This document shows, piece by piece, positions 1-17,367 of a DNA stretch of 18,827 bases. The notes under the pieces were generated by a model. It was not told where the DNA came from and made no database searches. It saw nothing but the letters and a program-made list of their open reading frames with translations. Both the position numbers and the translations under genes were made by a program. The stretch is taken from assembly GCA_015067375.1 (NCBI GenBank), contig SVMQ01000011.1, positions 1 through 18,827 of the forward strand, in the 5' to 3' direction. Source of the DNA: Oscillospiraceae bacterium. Lineage in GTDB: Bacteria; Bacillota; Clostridia; Oscillospirales; Ruminococcaceae. Position 1 is the first letter of the stretch. Each line of letters opens with the position of its first letter.

Positions 1-495
1 GGATACGTGATTGACAAAACCCACCACGGGTTGCACCAAAGAAGAAAGAAAATTTGCTTTCTTGGAAATATCCGCAAGCCGTGCGCTTATCTTCGTATAT
101 TCTTCCAAACGTCCGCTTTCCATTCCAAAATTTTTCACCGTCTCTATCCCGCCGTAGGTCTCTTCCGCGTAGGCGTAAATAGCGTCGTATTCTTCCCAAA
201 GCTTGTTGTATTCCTTGGCGCTTTTCTTTGCGATAACCGTCGCCAAAATTGCCGAAATCGGCGTGAGAAGAAGTACCATGACTGCGATGACTGCATCGGC
301 TTCTTCAGCGCCGCAGGCGCGAAGCGTATCTCCTGAGGTGCCATCGCCGCAGCTTACTTCAGCGTCAAGGTTGTTTGCGCAGAAGTGGCACTGCTCCTTA
401 TCCTGCTCGATTATCACGACGGAATGTTCCTGCTCCAGCAGCGTTTTTGCAAGGTAGAAGCCTACCTTTCCGCCGCCGACTATGATAGTTCTCAT
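1..495 (-). CDS. TrkA-like N-terminus joined in frame to an ABC-exporter membrane-domain fragment (partial)
   Basis: The frame starts at ATG 495, behind an AGGAGG site that overlaps the stop of the preceding trkA, and stays open to the window edge (165 codons). Residues 1-72 are a typical TrkA/KtrA Rossmann domain: the nucleotide motif IIVGGGKVG, an acidic end of the second strand (VVIIEQD), a GDGT loop, and EEADAVIAV, which in this family is normally followed by a T-x-x-D-E-x-N helix. From about residue 73 the text becomes something else: a hydrophobic LLLTPISAILATVIA segment, then EETYGGIETVKNF and ISARLADISKKANFLSS. This is the pattern of the fourth to fifth membrane helices and intervening cytoplasmic region of ABC exporters (usual form EE-x-x-x-G-x-x-x-V-K-x-F). 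Codon choice changes too (more TTT, TTG and GAA). I infer an assembly chimera or a recombination joint rather than one functional protein. The left neighbour expected in a normal genome would be the rest of this trkA, perhaps followed by trkH. Confidence 0.85.
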   Translation of the reverse strand, partial: MRTIIVGGGKVGFYLAKTLLEQEHSVVIIEQDKEQCHFCANNLDAEVSCGDGTSGDTLRACGAEEADAVIAVMVLLLTPISAILATVIAKKSAKEYNKLWEEYDAIYAYAEETYGGIETVKNFGMESGRLEEYTKISARLADISKKANFLSSLVQPVVGFVNHVS

Positions 496-3496: not shown

Positions 3497-5773
3497 CTAT
3501 TTTTTGCCGAAGAGCGAGGCGAAAAATCCCTTTTTCTTTTCGGGCTTTTCAGCAGGCTCTTCAGTCTTACGCGGCTTTGGCTGCGGTTCTTCTTCGTCGA
3601 ATACATTGAGCAGCAGCGGCTTTGTCTTGAATTCCTCTGCCATATCGTCAAGCAGATAGGTGTAGGTCTTTGTCGGCACAGCAACCTTGTATTCATCAAG
3701 GGAGGAGCAGTCAAGCAGCGCTTCAAGCTTCTCTGCCATGCGCTCGGGGATGCTGTCCGCGGCGCTGTCGTAGTATTCCTCGCAGGCGATATTGTACTCC
3801 TCGGCAGGATTTCTGCCTGCTACCTGAGTAAGGTGTATACCCTCGCGCAGATACGCGGTGTAATCAAGATAATCGCACCAGAATTCATTCAGCAGCGATG
3901 CGAGTATCAGATTCTGCTTTTTCTGCAAAGCATCCTTGTCGAATTTTGCAGCGGCTTCTTCGTAAAGCTCAGGCGCGTGGGTCTGCCACATTTCCGCATT
4001 GTAGCTGCCGTCAAGCAGTGCTTTTCTGCGGCGGAAGGTCTGCTCACGGTGCTTTTCGCCTATCATGGTGTATTTCATGAGGTTTGAGCGCTCGTCAAAG
4101 GCGTCGCCCTCGGAGATACGCTGTATGCGCTCGGCTTCTTTGAGCAGCGACTTGTCGTCTATAGCGCCGCTGACCTTTTCGGTGGGGTAGTGTCTGCCTG
4201 CAAGCTTGTGAAGCTCATATTTTGTCATGATGCCATCGTCAAGTGAGGCAAAAAAGCGGCTTTCTCCTATATCGCCCTGACGTCCTGCACGCCCGCGAAG
4301 CTGTCTTGTGATACGCGAGCTTTCTCTCATGGAAGTGGCAAGCACCAGCAGACCGCCTGCGTCTGTTACAAATTCCTTTTCGCGGCAATCCTCGCCGCCC
4401 AGCTTGATATCAACACCGCGGCCTGCCATATTGGTGGAGATGGTAACTGCACCCTTTTCACCGGCGCGTGAGATTATCGCGGCTTCCTCTGTGTCATTTT
4501 TTGCGTTGAGCACGGAGCATTCAATGCCCTTTGTGCGGAGTATCGCGGCAAGCTCCTCGGATTCCTCGATGCTCTCGGTGCCTACCAGCACGGGGCGCTG
4601 TGCCTCTGCGGCTTCTTCTATCGCGCTGATTATAGCAGCGTGCTTTTCCTCGCGGTCGAAGTACATCTCAAGCGGATGGTCGGTGCGCGCACAGGGAAGT
4701 CTTGTGGGTATGATGTCTGTGGGAAGTCCGTACAGTGCGTCAAATTCCTCTCTTGCAAGCTCCGCAGTGCCTGTCATACCTGCTATTTTAGGATACAGTC
4801 GCGCAAAATATTGCAGCGCAATATTGCCCATGATACGTCCGCGCGAGGTTATTTTAAGTCCATGCTTTGCCTCTACTGCAGGCTGCAGCTCGCCGGGGAA
4901 TACACGTCCTATTGCGGCTCTGCCTGTAAACTCATCTATAAGGGTAATGTGTTCGTCTTTTACGATGTAGTCCTTATCCTCTTTAAGCACTGCGCGCGCT
5001 TTAAGGCAGGCGCAGACCTTTGCGAGCAGGGGCGCGCCCTCCTCGCTGTAGATATCACAGCCGAATACATCCTCCGCGAGGTCTGCGCCCTCGTCGGTGA
5101 GGTAGACATTGCGGCTTTCTTCGTCTATCTCAAAATGCTCGTCCAGTATAAAGTCGGAAAGCTTTGCATACACTTGCGCGGTGGAGCTGCTGTCCTCAGC
5201 GGCGAGGTCTCCCGCGATAACGAGTGGGATTCGTGCCTCGTCGATGAGGATGCTGTCCGCTTCGTCAACTATCGCTAAATTGAGCTGCTCGGGGAATACC
5301 ATCTTTTCGGGGTCGAAGCATACGAAATCGCGCAGATAGTCAAAGCCTGCCTCCTTTGCGGTGAGGTAGACCACCTGTCTTTTATAGGCATCCTTGCGCT
5401 CGGCGGTATCTGACTTTTCTGTCACATAACCGACAGAAACGCCCATTTCGTCGTATACAGGCTTCATCCATTCATAGTCGCGCTTTGCAAGGTAGTCGTT
5501 AAAGGTCAGGATGTGTACTGCACCGCCGTTTGCGGCTTCGCTGCAGGCTGCAAACACTGCGGAGAGAGTCTTGCCCTCGCCTGTCTGCATCTGCACCATC
5601 ATGCCGTCGCACAGTGATAAAGCGGCAGAGAGCTGTTCGTCAAACGGTGTTATTCCGAGCGTCTTTTCGACAGCGTTATAGCAGCGCGCGAATACCTGTT
5701 CTATACTGTTGCCTGAGGTATCTCCGCCTGTGGCAAGCTCCTTTATTTTTGCGATAAGTGTTTTTTTATCCAA
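3497..5773 (-). CDS. secA2: SecA-type preprotein translocase ATPase, short SecA2-like form
   Basis: This is an ATP-driven motor for protein export through SecYEG. Walker A is MQTGEGKT (62-69), the DEAD box sits in IVDEADSILIDEARIP (168-183), and the second helicase half has TNMAGRGVDIKLGG and RGRAGRQGDIGESRFF. At 758 aa it is shorter than housekeeping SecA (about 830-900 aa). It lacks the C-terminal Cys-rich zinc/SecB-binding tail and ends instead in a Pro/Glu/Lys linker and a basic amphipathic tip, KKGFFASLFGKK. The start is TTG at 5773 with AGGAG 6 bases upstream; there is no ATG between it and the Nudix stop. I infer an accessory SecA2 because of length, tail and operon setting. A divergent sole SecA cannot be excluded from one window. 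No accessory SecY or Asp gene is nearby. Its natural clients could be the abundant surface proteins encoded further right, but nothing here proves that. Confidence 0.88.
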   Translation of the reverse strand: MDKKTLIAKIKELATGGDTSGNSIEQVFARCYNAVEKTLGITPFDEQLSAALSLCDGMMVQMQTGEGKTLSAVFAACSEAANGGAVHILTFNDYLAKRDYEWMKPVYDEMGVSVGYVTEKSDTAERKDAYKRQVVYLTAKEAGFDYLRDFVCFDPEKMVFPEQLNLAIVDEADSILIDEARIPLVIAGDLAAEDSSSTAQVYAKLSDFILDEHFEIDEESRNVYLTDEGADLAEDVFGCDIYSEEGAPLLAKVCACLKARAVLKEDKDYIVKDEHITLIDEFTGRAAIGRVFPGELQPAVEAKHGLKITSRGRIMGNIALQYFARLYPKIAGMTGTAELAREEFDALYGLPTDIIPTRLPCARTDHPLEMYFDREEKHAAIISAIEEAAEAQRPVLVGTESIEESEELAAILRTKGIECSVLNAKNDTEEAAIISRAGEKGAVTISTNMAGRGVDIKLGGEDCREKEFVTDAGGLLVLATSMRESSRITRQLRGRAGRQGDIGESRFFASLDDGIMTKYELHKLAGRHYPTEKVSGAIDDKSLLKEAERIQRISEGDAFDERSNLMKYTMIGEKHREQTFRRRKALLDGSYNAEMWQTHAPELYEEAAAKFDKDALQKKQNLILASLLNEFWCDYLDYTAYLREGIHLTQVAGRNPAEEYNIACEEYYDSAADSIPERMAEKLEALLDCSSLDEYKVAVPTKTYTYLLDDMAEEFKTKPLLLNVFDEEEPQPKPRKTEEPAEKPEKKKGFFASLFGKK

Positions 5774-9409: not shown

Positions 9410-9428
9410 TATACTATTATAATATATT

Positions 9429-9453
9429 AAGGGAGGGTCGATGCCCTCCCTTT
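9429..9453 (+). terminator. Intrinsic terminator after the kinase-like gene
   Basis: AAGGGAGGG and CCCTCCCTT form a 9-bp stem with a 6-base loop, followed by T-rich TTGCTGTTTT. Confidence 0.85.
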
Positions 9454-9471
9454 GCTGTTTTATGATCGACG

Positions 9472-10205
9472 CCGACCAACAGGACGGGGCAAATAAAAAG
9501 AAGCAGCTGCGCGAACGTGAGCGTTTTTTGCGAAGCAAAAATGAAATGCCATAAGGGCATTTCAAGTCGAGGTTTGCCATTTAAAAAACCGTCCAAAAAG
9601 ATGGGGTGCAATAAACTTGTAGCAGCTCCCGCGAACGTGAGCGTTTTTTGCGAAGCAAAAATGAAATGCCGTAAGGGCATTTCAAGCCGAGCGTTTGCAA
9701 TTAAAAAAACCGTCCAAAAAGATGGTGCAATAAACTTGTAGCAGCTCCTGCGAACGTGAGCGATTTTTGCGAAGCAAAAATGAAATGCCATAAGGGCATT
9801 TCAAGCCGAGCGTTTGCCATTTAAAAAACCGACCAAAAAGATGGTGCAATAAACTTGCAGCAGCTCCCGCGAACGTGAGCGATTTTTGCGAAGCAAAAAT
9901 GAAATGCCGTAAGGGCATTTCAAGTCGAGGTTTGCCATTAAAAAAACCGTCCATCAGGACGGGGCAAATAAAAAGAAGCGGCTCCCGCGAACGTGAGCGA
10001 TTTTTGCGAAGCAAAAATGAAATGCCATAAGGGCATTTCAAGTCGAGGTTTGCCATTAAAAAAACCGTCCATCAGGACGGGGCAAATAAAAAGAAGCAGC
10101 TCCCGCGAACGTGAGCGTTTTTTGCGAAGCAAAAATGAAATGCCGTAAGGGCATTTCAAGCCGAGCGTTTGCCATTTAAAAAACCGTCCAACAGGACGGT
10201 TTTTT
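9472..10205. repeat. Tandem array of six 118-119 bp multi-hairpin units
   Basis: Unit starts (GCAGCT or GCGGCT) fall at 9503, 9622, 9741, 9860, 9978 and 10096, giving periods of 119, 119, 119, 118 and 118. Every unit carries the same structural series: GCTC...GAGC around CGCGAACG (first copy altered); TTTTTGC-GAA-GCAAAAA; TGAAATGCC-NTAAG-GGCATTTCA, whose loop varies (AT/GT) while the stem is unchanged; and, at the linker, ACCGTCC with a more or less complete GGACGG partner. Two linker types occur: AAAAGATGG...ATAAACTTG after copies 1-3, and ATCAGGACGGGGCAAATA before copy 1 and after copies 4 and 5. Body variants AAGCCGAGCG and AAGTCGAGG alternate independently. The period is not a multiple of 3, so reading frames in it shift from copy to copy; I regard it as non-coding. 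Weakly remembered, not checked: minus-strand translations such as PYGISFLLRKKRSRSREL recur among doubtful predicted proteins of gut Firmicutes, which would make this a dispersed repeat family. Confidence 0.93.
10178..10205. terminator. Perfect bidirectional terminator ending the array and the tRNA transcript
   Basis: AAAAAACCGTCC (10178-10189) and GGACGGTTTTTT (10194-10205) are exact complements around a 4-base AACA loop. It can stop transcripts leaving the tRNA on the minus strand as well as any plus-strand transcript from the array. It is the last, intact version of the linker hairpin of the array. Confidence 0.9.
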
Positions 10206-10212
10206 AAATATG

Positions 10213-10287
10213 TGGCACCCCTTGTAGGAATCGAACCTACAACTGCCCCTTAGGAGGGGGCTGTTATATCCATTTAACTAAAGAGGC
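10213..10287 (-). tRNA. tRNA-Arg (anticodon CCT)
   Basis: The cloverleaf was read by eye on the minus strand: acceptor GCCTCTT pairing with AAGGGGT (two G-T wobbles), an anticodon arm GCCCC-CTCCTAA-GGGGC that gives CCT (reads AGG, Arg), a T arm GTAGG-TTCGATT-CCTAC, and an encoded CCA at 10215-10213. It is 75 bases with CCA. The terminator at 10178-10205 follows its 3' end by 7 bases. Confidence 0.95.
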
Positions 10288-10730: not shown

Positions 10731-11609
10731 ATGAAGATCACAAAGATTCTTTCTACCGTTGCAGCTGCTGCAGTTGCAACATCCGCTCTTGCTGCTACTG
10801 CAAGCGCAAACTTCAAGCCCTGGGGCACAAACGTTAACCCCGCAGGTTACGTAGAGAACAGCGGCTCCGGCAACTATGGTATCATGGTTGTTTCCACAGG
10901 TGAGGCTGACGCTCCCACATCTACTCTGGCAGAAGATTTCGGTTTCGATCCCACAGATATCGGTGGCGCTTACTTCATCGTTACTATCCCCGAGACAGAC
11001 AGCTTTGGTGCTGACGGCAACCAGCTCTGGTGGGATGGTTCTATCGGCGGCGGTATCGTAACATCCCTGCACACCGATACAGATAAGTCCACATACAACT
11101 GGCCCTCTCAGGGTGAGTTCTGGGGCGTTATCGACGAGGATCTCGGTCTTGAGACACTCGCAGCTGACAAGCCCTTCCAGTTCGAGAAGGTTGGCGACTA
11201 CACCTACAAGCTGACTGCAATGTTCAACTTCGATGAGGCTCTCAACACAATCGAGGGCGATCACATCGTTCAGTACAGAATCTTCATGCAGGGCTGGGAC
11301 AACGGTATGGCTGAGTACCAGGTAACAGAGTGCGCACTGCTCGATGATTCCGGCAACCCCCTCGTTACACTTTCCGGTGATGGTTATCCCCTCACTGATA
11401 CACCCGTAGCTGACACACCCGCAGTTGAGGATGCTCCTGTTGATACACCCGCCGATGCTCCCGCTGACACAGGCGCAGTTGATACAGGTGCTGCTACAGA
11501 TACAAACAAGGGCGGCTCTCCTGACACAGGTGTTGAGGGCGTAGCTGCTGTTGCAGGTCTCGCAGTTGTTGCTGCTGGCGCTGCAATCCTCTCCAAGAAG
11601 AGAAAGTAA
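10731..11609 (+). CDS. Exported cell-surface protein with beta-rich domain and SPDTG-type anchor
   Basis: A 292-aa protein exposed on the cell surface; its function is not recognised. Residues 1-27 are a signal peptide (KK/R-poor but positive start MKITK, an Ala-rich core, cleavage likely after TASA). Residues about 28-220 are aromatic- and Gly-rich with alternating hydrophobics and resemble a beta-sandwich, perhaps carbohydrate-binding (LWWDGSIGGG, YNWPSQGEFWGV, YRIFMQGWDNGMAEYQV); the family is not identified. Residues about 223-265 form a Pro/Thr/Asp/Ala linker of DTPA-type repeats. The tail has SPDTG, a hydrophobic stretch (VAAVAGLAVVAAGAAIL) and KKRK, a sortase-like sorting signal in which SPDTG stands for LPxTG. 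Codons are extremely biased (ACA, GCT/GCA, TCC, CCC), and TTA, CTA and TCA are practically absent, which indicates heavy expression. It is first in a row of three surface genes. A small substrate-binding adhesin is the most reasonable guess. Confidence 0.9.
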   Translation: MKITKILSTVAAAAVATSALAATASANFKPWGTNVNPAGYVENSGSGNYGIMVVSTGEADAPTSTLAEDFGFDPTDIGGAYFIVTIPETDSFGADGNQLWWDGSIGGGIVTSLHTDTDKSTYNWPSQGEFWGVIDEDLGLETLAADKPFQFEKVGDYTYKLTAMFNFDEALNTIEGDHIVQYRIFMQGWDNGMAEYQVTECALLDDSGNPLVTLSGDGYPLTDTPVADTPAVEDAPVDTPADAPADTGAVDTGAATDTNKGGSPDTGVEGVAAVAGLAVVAAGAAILSKKRK

Positions 11610-11861
11610 TCCATACATATATGGAGATATCCGAAAATTTCGGATGAATAAAAATTTTCAAAAAAATTTGAAAATTCTGAAACTTTTTTGAATTTACCCG
11701 CGACTACCGTAGTGTAACCGAAAAAATCAAAAATTTTTTGAAACTTTTTTGATGGTTCGGCTGACTACGGCAGTGAGCGGTGAATTAATCACTGTTAAAC
11801 ACATCCGAGTGCCCGATAACTCAGAGATGTTTTAAAAAAACAAACTTTTAGGAGGACTATT
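11610..11861 (+). other. Highly structured intercistronic region
   Basis: No gene and no clear promoter here. In order: hairpin TCCATA-CATA-TATGGA (11610-11625); ATCCGA...TCGGAT (11629-11645); a 10-bp A/T stem AATTTTCAAA...TTTGAAAATT (11653-11676); then an imperfect long hairpin between ACTACCGTAGT (11703) and ACTACGGCAGT (11764), enclosing AACC/GGTT and ATCAAAAA/TTTTTGAT. TGAAACTTTTTTGA occurs twice, 61 bases apart (11678, 11739), and GACTAC...AGTG repeats with the same 61-base offset, so an old tandem duplication underlies part of this. A last hairpin, ACATC...GATGT (about 11800-11830), ends in TTTT just before TTAGGAGG (11849-11855). Any of these could end or stabilise the first transcript. 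Because no promoter is seen, partial read-through into the dockerin gene is likely. Confidence 0.6.
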
Positions 11862-14522
11862 ATGTTAAGAAGAAGAATCTTTTCTTCCGCTATGGCTTCT
11901 GTAATGGCACTTTCTTCCGTTGCAGTTGTTGCTAATGCAGAAGACGCACAGTACAAGTCCAAGGCAGAACTTGAGAAGCTTGTATATGAGACCTACGGTG
12001 ATACTTTCCGTACAGACGAGCTGTCTGAGTACGGTTCCGTATCTGCTGACGCTGTTCTCGATGCACTCGAGGCTGCTGAGGCTATTCTCAATGATGATGA
12101 GAAGGATGAGGCTGATTACACAGTTGCATACATGATGGTAGAGGCTACTGTTTCCAGACTCGTTATCTACACTGCTGAGGAGCTCGATGCTCTTATCAAG
12201 AAGTGCACATCCATCTACGAGAGCAACAACATCTACAACGAGGAGCTTCAGGATCGTATCTACACAGTTAAGACATACGGTGCTCTTACAGAGGCTTATG
12301 AGAACGCTACACTGTTCGTTACATCCTCTTCCAGCGTTGATATCACAGAGGCTTATGAGCAGCTGAACAAGGCTTACAACGAGCTGGAGAAGGAGACTGT
12401 AGTTTCCAAGTCCATGTTCAGATCTGTTATGAAGCAGTATGAGGCAATCATCAAGTCCGAGTACGCTTACGAGACATGGAGACGTGGTGCTTACACATCC
12501 GACTGGACCAACCTCAACACTGGCAACTACTGGGCAATCCAGGGCGCACAGGCTACATTCGGTGTTGCTTGGGAGTCCATGCTGTCTGTAAAGGCTGACA
12601 TCAACTCCGCTTACGAGTCCATCGACTCCATCAAGACACTGTCCAAGACATCTGACGAGGACATCGTTGCTGGTTACAAGATGGCACAGGATGCTGTTAC
12701 TCTGTTCAATGCTTGGTCTGCTGATGATACATCCAGAGCTACAAAGGCTGGTGTAAACGCACTGCTCAAGCAGTATCACGGTTGCCTCGTATACGAGTAC
12801 AACATGACATCTGCTGAGGCTCTCTACGATCTGATCGATGCAGCTAACGGTGTTGACGAGAAAACAGGCGAGAACAAGCTTGTATCTGATGGTGTTGCTC
12901 CCACCTACGGTCAGGCTGATTACTGGCAGCCTTCCTGGTCCAACAACACAACTGCTAAGCTCACAGATGCTAAGTGGAACATCAAGTCTACAGTAAACAT
13001 CTACGTTCCCGTAGACGCTAAGGGCTTCTGGACAGGCGCTGACATCAAGGTTGGCACACGTCCCGACGAGTCTACTCTTCCTACAGGTGCTGAGAGATGG
13101 CAGCTCATCTCCGCTAAGACAAACTTCGACATCCTCAAGATGATCAAGGTTGATTCTTCCATGATCTCTGCTGACCTCGACAACAAGTCTGGTGGCAAGG
13201 ATATCAGCGGCGATTCTAAGAACGCAGTTCTCGACAGAGCTTACGAGTGGAACACATTCGGCGCTCCCATCATCTACGGCGAGATGGCTACACATGATGA
13301 GAACGGCAATGCATTCCAGGTTTGCGACTGGTCTACAGGCGCTGACGTTCATAAGGACGGCGAGAAGAGCCGTATCGCTTACTACCTTGAGGGTGGCACA
13401 ACACATCCTCACTTCTGGGAAGCTGATATGAGCGATGACTACAACACAAACATCGACTTCTCCAACGCTTACCTGCTTGCTGAGAACTACATTGCAGGCA
13501 ACCACAAGGCTGTAGTAGAGGGCGCTGGCAACGATATCTATGATGTCGACACAACAGGTGTTGTAGCTAAGGAAGCTAGCGGTAACTCCAAGGAGTGGGC
13601 TATGGTATATCGTTACCTCAAGTACGCTCTGGAGGATAAGTACTCCGCAGTTGTAACAACTGAGACACACACAAGAGCTGATGTTAAGAAGCTCATCGAC
13701 GACTGCTACGATCTCGCTGATCTGACAGGTGACGCAGCTATCTTCGAGGTAACTCACAATGCGATGGTTGAGGCTCGTCAGGATGCTCTTGACTGGCTGA
13801 CAGAAGCTACAGCTGATAAGCTCTACAAGGATAACACAACATTCCACGTATTCGGCAACTACACTGTTGAGCTGGATAAGGATGGCGATGGCACACCTGA
13901 GACCTACTCTGTAGCATACAACTCCACAGGCGCTTACGATCACCTCTACGCTAAGTACGAGGCTCTGCTCAAGGAATACAACGCAATGAAGTACTCCTTC
14001 GGCGATATCTACGACAAGCTGGCTGAGGTTACAGCTATGATCGATGATGGTGATCTCGAGGCTACAACAGAGCTGCTCACCGCTCTCGATGAGACTGCAT
14101 ACCGTCTGTCTGTTGTTGATGATCTCGTTAACGAGACATACGATGAGAACCCCGCATTCGACGTTGACAGAGCATTCCAGGCTCACAACCGTCTGATCAC
14201 AAACACAGGCGACGCTCAGAACATCGCTACAATCAACCAGGGCGTTACAACTAAGGATGGCGCTAACCCCACTCACGCAGCTCTTGCTACAGCTTACGAC
14301 GCTCTGCTCGCAGCTGTTGACGCTCAGCTCGCTCCCGCAGCTCTGCTCGGTGACGTTGATGGCAACGGTACTGTAAATGCTCTCGACGCTTCCGCTCTGC
14401 TCGTTAACACTGTAAACGGTGTTACTATGGATGCTGCTGTTGCTGACTACGATAAGAACGGCTCTATCAATGCACTCGATGCATCTGCTATCCTGATCGC
14501 TATCGTTAACGGCACAGTTTAA
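11862..14522 (+). CDS. Large exported helical protein with C-terminal type I-like dockerin
   Basis: An 886-aa secreted protein that should bind a cohesin. Signal peptide: residues 1-26 (MLRRRIFSS, a hydrophobic core, cleavage after VANA). Residues about 30-270 and 600-820 are rich in Ala/Glu/Tyr helices of the kind found in FIVAR-like and other surface helical modules (for example ITEAYEQLNKAYNELEKET, YDHLYAKYEALLKEYNAMKY). Residues about 330-570 look beta-rich and aromatic (YWQPSWSNNTTAKL, YVPVDAKGFWTGADIKV) with no glycosidase motif that I can name. The dockerin occupies 828-886: two loops, DVDGNGTVNALD (831-842) and DYDKNGSINALD (862-873), each followed by the same ASA(L/I)L helix, with Ca-ligands at loop positions 1, 3, 5, 9 and 12. 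The halves are nearly identical (recognition residues Ala-Leu in both), as expected for dual-mode binding. Codon bias is extreme. It is preceded by TTAGGAGG and followed directly by the cohesin-like gene. Confidence 0.9.
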   Translation: MLRRRIFSSAMASVMALSSVAVVANAEDAQYKSKAELEKLVYETYGDTFRTDELSEYGSVSADAVLDALEAAEAILNDDEKDEADYTVAYMMVEATVSRLVIYTAEELDALIKKCTSIYESNNIYNEELQDRIYTVKTYGALTEAYENATLFVTSSSSVDITEAYEQLNKAYNELEKETVVSKSMFRSVMKQYEAIIKSEYAYETWRRGAYTSDWTNLNTGNYWAIQGAQATFGVAWESMLSVKADINSAYESIDSIKTLSKTSDEDIVAGYKMAQDAVTLFNAWSADDTSRATKAGVNALLKQYHGCLVYEYNMTSAEALYDLIDAANGVDEKTGENKLVSDGVAPTYGQADYWQPSWSNNTTAKLTDAKWNIKSTVNIYVPVDAKGFWTGADIKVGTRPDESTLPTGAERWQLISAKTNFDILKMIKVDSSMISADLDNKSGGKDISGDSKNAVLDRAYEWNTFGAPIIYGEMATHDENGNAFQVCDWSTGADVHKDGEKSRIAYYLEGGTTHPHFWEADMSDDYNTNIDFSNAYLLAENYIAGNHKAVVEGAGNDIYDVDTTGVVAKEASGNSKEWAMVYRYLKYALEDKYSAVVTTETHTRADVKKLIDDCYDLADLTGDAAIFEVTHNAMVEARQDALDWLTEATADKLYKDNTTFHVFGNYTVELDKDGDGTPETYSVAYNSTGAYDHLYAKYEALLKEYNAMKYSFGDIYDKLAEVTAMIDDGDLEATTELLTALDETAYRLSVVDDLVNETYDENPAFDVDRAFQAHNRLITNTGDAQNIATINQGVTTKDGANPTHAALATAYDALLAAVDAQLAPAALLGDVDGNGTVNALDASALLVNTVNGVTMDAAVADYDKNGSINALDASAILIAIVNGTV

Positions 14523-14565
14523 TCTGTAATTAATCATCATTTCAAGTTTTGTGATTAGTCCCCCA

Positions 14566-14585
14566 GTCGGAGCTTCGGCTCCGAC
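14566..14585 (+). other. UUCG-capped intercistronic hairpin
   Basis: GTCGGAGC and GCTCCGAC form a perfect 8-bp stem around a TTCG tetraloop, one of the most stable RNA hairpins. A weaker TAATCA...TGATTA stem (14531-14557) precedes it. No T-run follows, so it fits a 3'-end or processing stabiliser between the two cistrons better than a full terminator. Confidence 0.7.
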
Positions 14586-14629
14586 AACGGGATTGATTAT
14601 ATAAACAAAAAACTATGGAGGAAAATAAT

Positions 14630-15280
14630 ATGAAGAAGATTTTATCTCTCGGCGTTGCTGCTGCTGTTCTTTCTATGACAGCTATCGCTGCATCTGCTGC
14701 TATCGCTCCCGCTATCATCGATGATGTTGTAGAGGGCGAGACAATCACAGTTGAAGTTGTTGCTAACGGCATGACACTTCCCGGCACACAGTTCACAGTT
14801 GCTGCTTCTGATAACCTGACACTGGTTGAGTCCACAGCTATCGGTGGCGGTTTCTTCGCTAACAACACATTTGCATGGGCTTCCACAGAGGCTGCTGCTG
14901 ACGGTACAGTTCTTCTGACACTGGTTTACAACGTTGACGGCGCTGCTGATGATGAGGTTTCCGTAACTCTCACACCTGCTGCTGGCTTCGAGGCTGATGT
15001 AGACGCTACTGCTGCAGCAGCAGTTGTAGTTGCTGGTGAGGGCGTGATCGGCGATATCACATCTGAGGAGAGCACAGAGACTGTTGATATCACAGAGACT
15101 GTTGACATCACAGAGACTGTTGATATCACAGAGACTGTTGACATCACAGAGACTGTTGACACACCTGCTGAGTCCACAGAGTCCGCTGAGACTTCCAACC
15201 CTGGCACAGGTATCGCTCTTGCAGTTGCTCCCGCAATGCTCGCAGGCGCTGCTATCGTAGTTGCTAAGAAGAGAAAGTAA
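14630..15280 (+). CDS. Cell-wall-anchored protein with a compact cohesin-like domain
   Basis: A 216-aa surface protein. ATG 14630 is chosen because GGAGGA (14617-14622) lies properly in front; the in-frame ATG at 14615 sits on the ribosome site. Signal peptide: about 1-23 (MKKILSL, a hydrophobic core, cleavage after ASA). Residues about 34-138 have the layout of a cohesin: a first strand with GETITVEVVANG, a strand-pair TLPGTQFTVAASDNLTLVEST, a glycine-rich turn and FFANNTFAWAS, then DGTVLLTLVYNVDGAADDEVSVTLTPAAGF, ending AAAVVVAGEGVIGD. It is shorter (about 105 aa) than typical cohesins (about 135-140 aa), so the assignment is by pattern, not certain; another Ig-like surface domain is the alternative. 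Residues 149-178 are five copies of TETVD(I/T). The C-terminus has NPGTG (190-194), a hydrophobic helix and KKRK, a sortase-type signal. It lies just after a dockerin gene and shares its codon bias, which supports a cohesin role: a single-cohesin anchor like the short anchoring scaffoldins of ruminococci. Confidence 0.85.
   Translation: MKKILSLGVAAAVLSMTAIAASAAIAPAIIDDVVEGETITVEVVANGMTLPGTQFTVAASDNLTLVESTAIGGGFFANNTFAWASTEAAADGTVLLTLVYNVDGAADDEVSVTLTPAAGFEADVDATAAAAVVVAGEGVIGDITSEESTETVDITETVDITETVDITETVDITETVDTPAESTESAETSNPGTGIALAVAPAMLAGAAIVVAKKRK
15074..15163 (+). repeat. Five tandem 18-bp units coding TETVD(I/T)
   Basis: Units start at 15074, 15092, 15110, 15128 and 15146. The Asp codon alternates GAT/GAC along the row, so the original duplication unit was probably 36 bp. 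It codes the Thr/Glu-rich spacer between the folded domain and the wall anchor. Such an array can change length by slippage or recombination without shifting the frame. Confidence 0.93.
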
Positions 15281-15320
15281 TCCGGCATAGCTGAGATGAT
15301 CTTATTCTGATTAAACATTG

Positions 15321-15344
15321 ACCTCCCCTTTCGGGGAGGTTTTT
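15321..15344 (+). terminator. Strong intrinsic terminator of the surface-protein cluster
   Basis: ACCTCCCC and GGGGAGGT form an 8-bp stem with a TTTC loop, followed by TTTTGTTT. It is the only textbook terminator between the first surface gene and the ABC operon. Confidence 0.93.
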
Positions 15345-15737: not shown

Positions 15738-16463
15738 ATGGATCACATAATTGAAGCAAAAAGCGTCTGCATGGACTTTAAGATCGGTGACGGTAGCGTT
15801 GTTCATGCGCTGAAAGGTATTGATCTCCAGATCAGGCCGAATAAGCTGTCTGTGCTCAGAGGTCGTTCTGGCTCAGGCAAAACGACACTCATAAATATCC
15901 TCGGTGCGCTCGACAGACCCACTTCAGGTGAGGTCATCTTTATGGAGGAAGGCAACGACATTACAAAGCTCTCCGATCCTGAGAGGGATCGGCTGCGCCG
16001 CTTTGATATGGCGTTCGTGTTCCAGTCGGTCGCACTGATATCAACGATGACGGCTTTCGAAAACGTGGAATTCGCGCTGAGGCTGACAAAACTGCCTTAT
16101 CGGGAGCGTGTTGAACGCGCTAAGCAAGCCCTCATTCAGGTCGGTCTGGAAAAACGTATGCATCATCGCCCGGGTGAAATGTCGGGTGGTGAGCAGCAGC
16201 GTGTAGCCATTGCGAGAGCAATTTCCACATCGCCCAAGATCATTTTCGCGGATGAGCCTACTGCCGAGCTCGACTCGCCAACAGGTTTTGCCGTAATGAA
16301 TCTTTTCAAAGAGTTGGTTAGGAATAACGATCTAACGATCGTTATGACGACCCACGACACTTCAATGATGGAGATCGCTGATATCGTTTACACACTAGAG
16401 GACGGCGTTATCAGTGATATTACCGAGAACGCTTCTGCAGACGGGGAGGGATCGGATGCCTAA
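15738..16463 (+). CDS. ABC transporter ATPase, LolD/MacB type
   Basis: A 241-aa nucleotide-binding subunit with Walker A GRSGSGKTT, Q-loop VFQSVALISTMTAFENVEF, signature MSGGEQQRVAIARAIS, Walker B IIFADEP and the switch His in MTTHD. The sequence around LGALDRPTSGEV and the D-loop DEPTAELDS place it with the LolD/MacB/FtsE branch, which usually works with FtsX-like or MacB-type permeases in export, lipoprotein handling or mechanotransmission, not with sugar import. ATG 15738 is chosen for the AAAGGG site 7 bases before it; upstream TTG 15717 is unsupported. The Q-loop neighbourhood and the A in DEPTAELD (usually DEPTGNLD) are slightly unusual but not disabling. It overlaps the next ATPase by 8 bases, so the two are made together, probably as a heterodimer. 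Confidence 0.93.
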   Translation: MDHIIEAKSVCMDFKIGDGSVVHALKGIDLQIRPNKLSVLRGRSGSGKTTLINILGALDRPTSGEVIFMEEGNDITKLSDPERDRLRRFDMAFVFQSVALISTMTAFENVEFALRLTKLPYRERVERAKQALIQVGLEKRMHHRPGEMSGGEQQRVAIARAISTSPKIIFADEPTAELDSPTGFAVMNLFKELVRNNDLTIVMTTHDTSMMEIADIVYTLEDGVISDITENASADGEGSDA

Positions 16464-17367
16464 AAAGGTCATGTTGGCTCCGCCCGAAAACGTCATGGTA
16501 CAGGCGGATAATCTGGTGAAGATCTACAAGTCCAAGGATGTCGAGGTAATGGCGCTTCAGGGACTGGATCTTACAGTAGAACGCGGCGAGCTGATGGGTA
16601 TCGTAGGCGCGAGCGGCAGCGGTAAATCAACGCTGCTGAATATGCTGGGCGGCCTCGACAGACCATCCGCGGGCAGCCTTTTCGTTGACGGAAAGGATAT
16701 GCTAAAGTTCACTGAAGAGGATTTCATCGAATACAAAAGGAATACAGTCGGGTTTGTGTGGCAGAATAATGCGCGCAACCTGATTCCGTATTTATCGGCA
16801 CAGCAGAATGTTGAGATGCCGTTGCTGCTTTCGGGCTTTTCGGGCAGAAAGCAGAGGGCGTCGGAGCTTCTCGATATGGTGGGATTATCTCACCGTAAGA
16901 ACAGCCGTCTTGACCAGATGTCAGGCGGTGAGCAGCAGAGAGTTGCGATCGCCATAGCGCTGTCAAATAACCCGAAGCTGCTTCTCGCAGACGAGCCGAC
17001 AGGCTCGGTGGACACCGCGACGGCAAAGCTTATTCTGGATGTGTTCCGCGATCTTAACAAGGTCATGGGCGTTACGATCATTATCGTGACGCACGATACA
17101 AAGCTTTCGGCACAGATCGACAGAGTCGTTGCCATCAGAGATGGTAAGACATCTACGGAGCTTGTGCGTAAGGCTTCGGTGATCAAATCCTTCGGTCAGC
17201 TGACCGAGGAGGCGGCTGAGGCGGGTCACGAGGAGCTTTCAGTCCTCGACCGTGCAGGCAGACTACAGATCCCGAAGGAATATCTTGAGGAACTCGGCAT
17301 CAAGGGCGGCGATAAGGTGCGCGTGGAGCTGGAGGACGGAAGGATATGTATTTACCCTCGGTTGTGA
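16456..17367 (+). CDS. ABC transporter ATPase (MacB-like) with C-terminal AbrB-like domain
   Basis: A 303-aa protein. Residues about 15-235 are a LolD/MacB-type ATPase: Walker A GASGSGKST, Q-loop FVWQNNARNLIPYLSAQQNVE, signature MSGGEQQRVAIAIALS, Walker B LLLADEPTGSVD, and IVTHD with the switch His. Residues 263-303 are an added domain, VLDRAGRLQIPKEYLEELGI followed by KGGDKVRVELEDGRICIYPR. This is the classic swapped-hairpin AbrB/MazE pattern (GR-x-x-IP-x-x-x-x-x-x-LGI-x-x-GD-x-V). Such domains normally dimerise and bind DNA, or in a few proteins serve purely for assembly. The fusion could tie transporter state to gene control, or simply dimerise the ATPase. The start ATG 16456 follows GGGGAGGG and lies inside the end of the preceding gene. 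The next gene begins 84 bases further on. Confidence 0.93.
   Translation: MPKKVMLAPPENVMVQADNLVKIYKSKDVEVMALQGLDLTVERGELMGIVGASGSGKSTLLNMLGGLDRPSAGSLFVDGKDMLKFTEEDFIEYKRNTVGFVWQNNARNLIPYLSAQQNVEMPLLLSGFSGRKQRASELLDMVGLSHRKNSRLDQMSGGEQQRVAIAIALSNNPKLLLADEPTGSVDTATAKLILDVFRDLNKVMGVTIIIVTHDTKLSAQIDRVVAIRDGKTSTELVRKASVIKSFGQLTEEAAEAGHEELSVLDRAGRLQIPKEYLEELGIKGGDKVRVELEDGRICIYPRL

Follow-up and report, generated by a model that had tools for sequence, protein, structure and literature searches.

A short cohesin with a wall-anchor motif, encoded beside a helical dockerin protein: a likely port for dockerin-bearing surface proteins in a genus of Oscillospiraceae

What does a dockerin bind in a genus whose genomes are nearly devoid of recognizable cohesins? 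The question is raised by a stretch of 18,827 nucleotides (nt; hereafter "the window", contig SVMQ01000011.1, denoted C59 of genome G000) from an Oscillospiraceae gut bacterium, in which the gene for an 886-amino-acid (aa) dockerin protein is followed by one for a 216-aa protein with a wall-anchor motif. The source assembly (2.23 Mb in 313 contigs, 74% complete) yields five dockerin matches besides this one and, by Pfam, no cohesin. Among the 100 related genomes surveyed, 43 belong to the same genus; these carry up to 16 dockerins each, and PF00963 was detected at E 1e-3 in 4 of the 43, with one domain apiece, one of them being the small cohesin itself. We find that a tiny cohesin missed by Pfam lies beside one dockerin gene of this genus, and we consider it likely that the protein containing it serves as a sortase-anchored single-cohesin port for the neighboring and probably several other dockerin proteins.

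The small protein is made up as follows, the evidence being given in parentheses.

14630..15280, + strand: small cohesin protein with a wall-anchor motif, 216 aa (open reading frame, alignment A1, fold; effective number of codons [Nc] 33.2)
14699..15037, + strand: cohesin-fold domain, residues 24-136 (predicted structure, profile)
15073..15161, + strand: repeat spacer, an 18-nt unit repeated 4.9 times and encoding TETVDI (tandem repeat)
15197..15277, + strand: NPGTG (residues 190-194), hydrophobic segment and KKRK tail, residues 190-216 (sequence; near-invariant in A1)

Its start was taken as the ATG at 14630, behind a GGAGGA ribosome site at 14617, the longer frame from 14615 being mechanical, and its signal peptide was read by eye as residues 1-23. 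Alone, the protein was not matched by PF00963 even at E 10, and it gave no usable cohesin match in NCBIfam or among PDB sequences. The predicted fold of residues 24-136 is a cohesin jelly roll of nine strands (predicted local distance difference test [pLDDT] 84-98), and a profile of these residues aligns with 20 Pfam cohesins (hhalign) at 96.2% probability, reversed controls giving about 1%. The profile also matches 5n5p (E 0.011), and the orthologue in G031 reaches E 1.8e-4 against PF00963 (22.5 bits, below the cut-off of 24.1). The collagen adhesin 6fwv, the best PDB match of the profile (E 2.9e-4), was discounted, as no domain passes individually (i-values of 1.2 and above). Residues 24-136 are thus a cohesin in fold and a sequence relative of cohesins. 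The domain is short, with 112 residues aligned versus 130-150 in most structurally matched chains. The anchor motif was identified by eye, since the region scores 15.4 bits against NF033846, below the curated cut-off of 23.5; sortases are present in the window's own genome. A sequence-only reading of this locus had proposed a signal peptide, a very short cohesin of the jelly-roll type, a repeat spacer and an NPGTG wall anchor for this gene; the fold, the shortness of the domain and the spacer were borne out, and a putative signal peptide and the anchor motif are visible in the sequence.

The gene upstream encodes the dockerin.

11862..14522, + strand: dockerin-bearing surface protein, 886 aa (open reading frame, Dockerin_1, AlphaFold2 mean pLDDT 81.8, codon usage)
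11862..11939, + strand: signal peptide, about residues 1-26 (by eye; conserved in alignment A2)
11955..12395, + strand: two three-helix modules resembling FIVAR (residues 32-102 and 103-178)
14337..14519, + strand: dockerin at the C terminus, residues 826-886; its two calcium loops, DVDGNGTVNALD and DYDKNGSINALD, are symmetric

Residues 829-876 match Pfam Dockerin_1 (E 4.9e-7, 30.3 bits versus a cut-off of 22.9) and, having two calcium-loop helix repeats and a Pfam score above cut-off, constitute a type I dockerin, symmetric as the sequence-only reading had it. No other Pfam family, and thus no enzyme family, exceeds its cut-off in this protein, and FIVAR gives no match. By structure comparison, residues 31-180 of the model appear to contain three-helix modules of the FIVAR type, as seen in EbhA, Embp and ZmpB; the dockerin protein differs from these in having no Pfam FIVAR match and in that its remainder, including a beta part at about residues 346-423, matches no assigned fold. 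Foldseek comparison of the whole model with the PDB likewise returned nothing significant (best E 0.17). The protein looks, on its model, like a helical surface protein with FIVAR-like, adhesin-like modules and without an enzyme domain, and the earlier view of it as possibly structural or adhesive agrees with this.

Is the pairing of the two genes more than chance? Initial protein searches of the 100 relatives turned up the dockerin protein in 20 genomes and the small protein in 18, every one of them from the genus of the window; once G034 and G041 had been read by hand and a profile search added, an orthologous small protein was present in 20 of the 43 genus genomes. The sequence-only reading had asked whether the pair is conserved, and in all 20 genomes the small gene lies 3' of a dockerin gene, on the same strand and across a gap of 86-113 nt (107 nt in the window), which argues that the pair is more than a chance arrangement. 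The dockerin profile recognized 17 of these 20 upstream dockerins; the remaining three (G024, G036 and G037) were identified by eye, with those of G036 and G037 looking degenerate. In G018, the dockerin protein is cut at a contig end and the small protein was not found. A search for related loci with the single window protein yielded none; with alignment A2, it gave seven named loci, all from Oscillospiraceae or Clostridia metagenome-assembled genomes. The 31 rows of A1, the alignment of the small protein, comprise the window's own sequence, 13 homologues from a listing of 120 (405 found) and 17 of 19 loci, L055 and the window's own locus L037 being left out; the 47 rows of A2, the alignment of the dockerin protein, comprise the window's own sequence and 46 homologues from a listing of 120 (231 found). 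Second, more divergent pairs stand near contig ends at L105 5305-6527 (G017:C25) and L106 5454-6410 (G041:C11), the latter with a dockerin gene truncated at the contig boundary. In G014:C10, another cohesin-like gene that follows a dockerin gene (L055/L066, about 5100-5460) was excluded as broken or misjoined because its broken frame runs into a KdpB-like frame (by eye).

Between and behind the two genes lie two further features.

14549..14598, + strand: intercistronic RNA hairpin with GC core at 14566-14585 (fold and covariation)
15320..15341, + strand: terminator-like stem after the cohesin gene (terminator-like site scan)

A GC-rich hairpin occurs in all 20 gaps (z of -2.4 to -7.0 versus 100 plain shuffles). 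Covariation was assessed in 19 of the 20 intergenic sequences, that of G041 being nearly the same as that of G017 and left out. In this alignment 91% of cells pair, 21 cells are changed on both sides versus a shuffled mean of 8.2, and the covariation score is 0.396 versus 0.184, neither value being reached in 500 shuffles; helices slid by 1-3 columns give at most 12 double-changed cells and a score of at most 0.113. Both sides are changed in five of the eight pairs, and 54 of 500 shuffles reach this count as well. Intergenic stem-loops, likewise GC-rich and between genes of a cohesin-dockerin system, are described as steering RNA processing and subunit ratio in the cip-cel operon of Ruminiclostridium cellulolyticum (PMC10311766); there, processing at the hairpin is demonstrated, whereas for the present pair the evidence is structure and covariation. 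By this analogy, the hairpin probably sets the relative amounts of the two proteins. The stem at 15320 is weak on its own, five terminator-like sites having been found in the window versus 3.0 expected; it suggests one transcript for the dockerin and cohesin genes. Codon usage is strongly biased (Nc 30.8 in the dockerin gene and 33.2 in the cohesin gene versus 43.1-58.1 in eight other window genes) and so suggests high expression of the pair. For a comparable anchored cohesin, cSca5 of Limousia, gene expression is reported to rank first (on mucin) or second (on glucose) of all genes (PMC12997984).

We propose that the small protein would be exported and its NPGTG signal fixed to the cell wall by a sortase, with the short cohesin held up on the repeat stalk. 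The 886-aa helical protein, probably made from the same transcript, would also be exported; its dockerin would fold around calcium and plug into the cohesin. The cohesin would probably also receive other dockerin proteins, which for the most part look like adhesins and not like enzymes, with the hairpin tuning how much of each of the two paired proteins is made.

Whether other dockerins share the port is the point on which the strongest alternative turns, i.e., that the pair is a private, self-contained complex whose members bind only each other, all other dockerins binding something else. Strict gene adjacency speaks for it, as does the correlated evolution of exactly these two domains: cohesin distances correlate with pair-dockerin distances (partial r 0.63, 0 of 5000 permutations) across 16 of the 20 pairs, once the distance over dockerin-protein residues 31-330 has been removed (body and dockerin of G001 were taken from different contigs). 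This correlation, and the similarity and dockerin-count statistics below, are inflated by kinship among the genomes. Over 15 genomes, the other dockerins resemble the pair dockerin more within a genome (0.451) than between genomes (0.385; 0 of 20,000 permutations), in 85 dockerin rows (17 pair, 68 other) chosen from the listings, with domains of at most 35 bits or fewer than 48 aa dropped and a tandem array of G017 included. In 6 of these 15, the own genome takes first rank; for the window's genome, it ranks 8 of 16, its other dockerins thus not being especially similar to that of the pair, and for G031, 12 of 16. Some recognition-helix signatures are shared: AADAT is common to the pair and other dockerins in G017 and G041, NVLDAS to the pair dockerin and the one other dockerin of G016, and DQ[RK]DA in G014 to the pair and two of eight others (as DQKDA). 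The array itself (L144 2999-8620, G017:C6) consists of seven small exported dockerin proteins of 205-303 aa with nearly identical dockerins.

Dockerin numbers also track the pair. Genomes with it have a mean of 6.1 dockerins versus 0.8 in those without (18 and 18 genomes, P 4e-6), and the excess persists when the pair's own dockerin is not counted (P 1e-4). G018, with five dockerins, lay outside the main count and, when added as "without", gives P 2.6e-4; G037 and G041 were also outside the count. Since genomes with the pair carry about six dockerins, and others about one, in a genus nearly free of Pfam cohesins, the pair is probably not self-contained, and it is here that the sequence-only reading, which had taken the two proteins for a complex complete in itself, is not supported. 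Together, these figures favor a shared port, and the private complex seems to us rather unlikely.

A second alternative, which we regard as improbable, is that the cohesin-like sandwich is an adhesin or structural wall protein that binds no dockerin, the dockerin having its partner somewhere else, perhaps in the quarter of the genome that the assembly lacks. Against it stand the profile match to cohesins with its clean controls, the constant presence of a dockerin gene beside the orthologues and the correlated distances; moreover, the nearly complete G014, G015 and G017 have the pair and give no PF00963 match at E 1e-3. Some observations do count against the reading that we favor. Distant wall-anchored cohesin-like proteins, neither of them beside a dockerin gene, were found with the small-cohesin profile in G009 (35.9 bits; L197 767-1783, G009:C40) and G033 (27.6 bits; L198, G033:C78), and G009, which is 99% complete, has no dockerin at PF00404. 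These two genomes are classed as lacking the pair in the counts above, which is true of the pair and untrue of the wider family. The family of wall-anchored cohesin-like proteins thus extends beyond the pair, and dockerin binding need not be common to all its members. The window's genome also contains the tail of another wall-anchored protein, truncated at a contig start (G000:C96, L196 1-325); its first residues resemble, by eye, the end of the small cohesin domain, and it may represent a second cohesin of this family. Many of the listed matches to the A1 profile share the anchor alone, and six unclear ones were inspected individually; G000:C23 and G038:C10 proved to be other exported proteins, and G055:C1 a helical anchored protein.

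The weakest alternative is a cellulosome of the ordinary kind that has diverged, with a multi-cohesin scaffoldin that Pfam does not see. It can point to ruminococcal cohesins described as escaping PF00963 (PMC11557425) and to a GH5-CBM65-dockerin enzyme in G026, but we think it very doubtful. One of ten dockerin clients scanned is a glycoside hydrolase, and in the window's genome the small-cohesin profile gives three matches (the small protein, an unrelated protein sharing its signal peptide, and the anchor tail at a contig start) and no cohesin array, although cohesins of greater divergence might have gone undetected. Pfam shows no multi-cohesin protein in the 43 genus genomes, but divergent cohesins can escape it.

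The port that we favor is not new as an architecture, because small single-cohesin sortase anchors are already known. ScaE of Ruminococcus flavefaciens is described as a sortase-attached anchoring scaffoldin with a single cohesin (PMC4081043); the present cohesin differs in being shorter (112 residues aligned, the solved ScaE chain having 181) and invisible to Pfam, and its neighbor is a helical protein without an enzyme domain rather than ScaB or CttA. The Limousia mucinolysome offers a similar wall-anchored cohesin in cSca5, which carries an LPxTG anchor and is predicted to bind the dockerins of two scaffoldins and most glycosidases (PMC12997984). As that account describes it, Limousia has multi-cohesin scaffoldins and many dockerin glycosidases, in contrast with the genus studied here, for which no multi-cohesin protein and one glycosidase among the scanned clients were noted above. 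In the noncellulosomal cohesin-dockerin pairs of Clostridium perfringens, the domains sit on glycoside hydrolases, whereas here the cohesin is on a small wall anchor. Within the literature searched, three elements appear to be new: (i) the very short cohesin family, (ii) its fixed partnership with a nonenzymatic helical dockerin protein, and (iii) the use of the dockerin boundary as a breakpoint of gene copies in G034, described below. Such a system would move cohesin-dockerin assembly from fiber degradation toward the display of adhesin-like surface proteins. In Ruminococcus albus, dockerins with hardly any visible cohesin are presented as an open puzzle (PMC4081043); the route taken here, from the neighbor of a dockerin gene via a wall anchor to structure prediction, could reveal missing partners elsewhere.

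What might a plug-in surface protein be good for? In G034 (100% complete), a 30-nt junction encoding LTSPTTTKGD, the last codons before the dockerin, is present in 14 copies (13 exact, one with a single mismatch; L056-L062, L104 and L186-L191), its backwards control having no occurrence. After the junction, one copy (C22) leads on to the dockerin and small cohesin gene, two lead to a remnant comprising half a dockerin, and 11 pass into other DNA that lacks a dockerin; the flanks of C9 and C17 are alike, as are those of C15 and C21. Eight junctions end long open frames, and the other six, C22 included, are tails at contig ends; the C22 contig begins 46 nt before the junction, and the body of the expression copy lies outside it. 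The four copies readable whole have identical first 60 nt and middles with mostly about 10-60% residue agreement. Four leaders agree at 36-39 of 40 nt just upstream of a leader hairpin and then at 8-20 of 40, C31 and C18 being alike for a further 40 nt. G034 thus shows the layout of silent cassettes: incomplete copies, constant ends, a variable middle and one complete copy. Among metagenomic homologues, recombination is indicated for the 51 proteins of 836-843 aa out of 120 listed (pairwise homoplasy index 0.19 versus 0.25, 0 of 500 permutations), and the last 60 columns of the set, which contain the dockerin, hardly vary. The window's own genome, in its fragmentary assembly, yielded one copy and no cassettes.

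The dockerin-cohesin joint could be a constant socket, with recombination with dockerin-less silent copies swapping the exposed part, i.e., antigenic variation; to us, the case for and against this is evenly balanced. If so, it would be a modular way of varying the surface while the anchor stays constant. Because each copy keeps its own start and ribosome site, the dockerin-less copies may instead be expressed as anchorless secreted proteins. Contig breaks inside the gene (G001, G018 and G024) were dropped as cassette signs, as they are expected in fragmented assemblies. Among the papers listed in searches of an open-access library, as judged by title and the opening of the abstract, none linked cohesin or dockerin to antigenic variation or silent cassettes or dealt with this pair. 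A leader hairpin (GAGT-8 nt-ACTC) lies in the window at 11804-11825, some 40-60 nt ahead of where the dockerin protein gene starts, and one of the same form lies upstream of the G034 cassettes (CGAGTCCCCGATCACTCG).

Elsewhere in the window, 10731-11609 (+) encodes a 292-aa exported protein with an SPDTG anchor (NF033846 above cut-off) and no other family; of 11 genes measured in the window, its gene shows the most biased codon usage (Nc 27.6). A repeated stretch at 9417-10056 (-), in which mechanical open reading frames read NLDLKCPYGISFLLRK and similar over and over, looks like a noncoding repeat near the tRNA at 10216-10287, the sole element returned by an Rfam scan of the window. The frame at 1-495 (-) begins TrkA-type-like and goes on as the membrane part of an ABC exporter (by eye), possibly a misjoin as it stands at the contig start. 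Finally, 16456-17367 (+) encodes an ABC transporter ATPase whose C terminus carries an additional MazE/AbrB-like domain (residues 266-301, E 9.5e-8).

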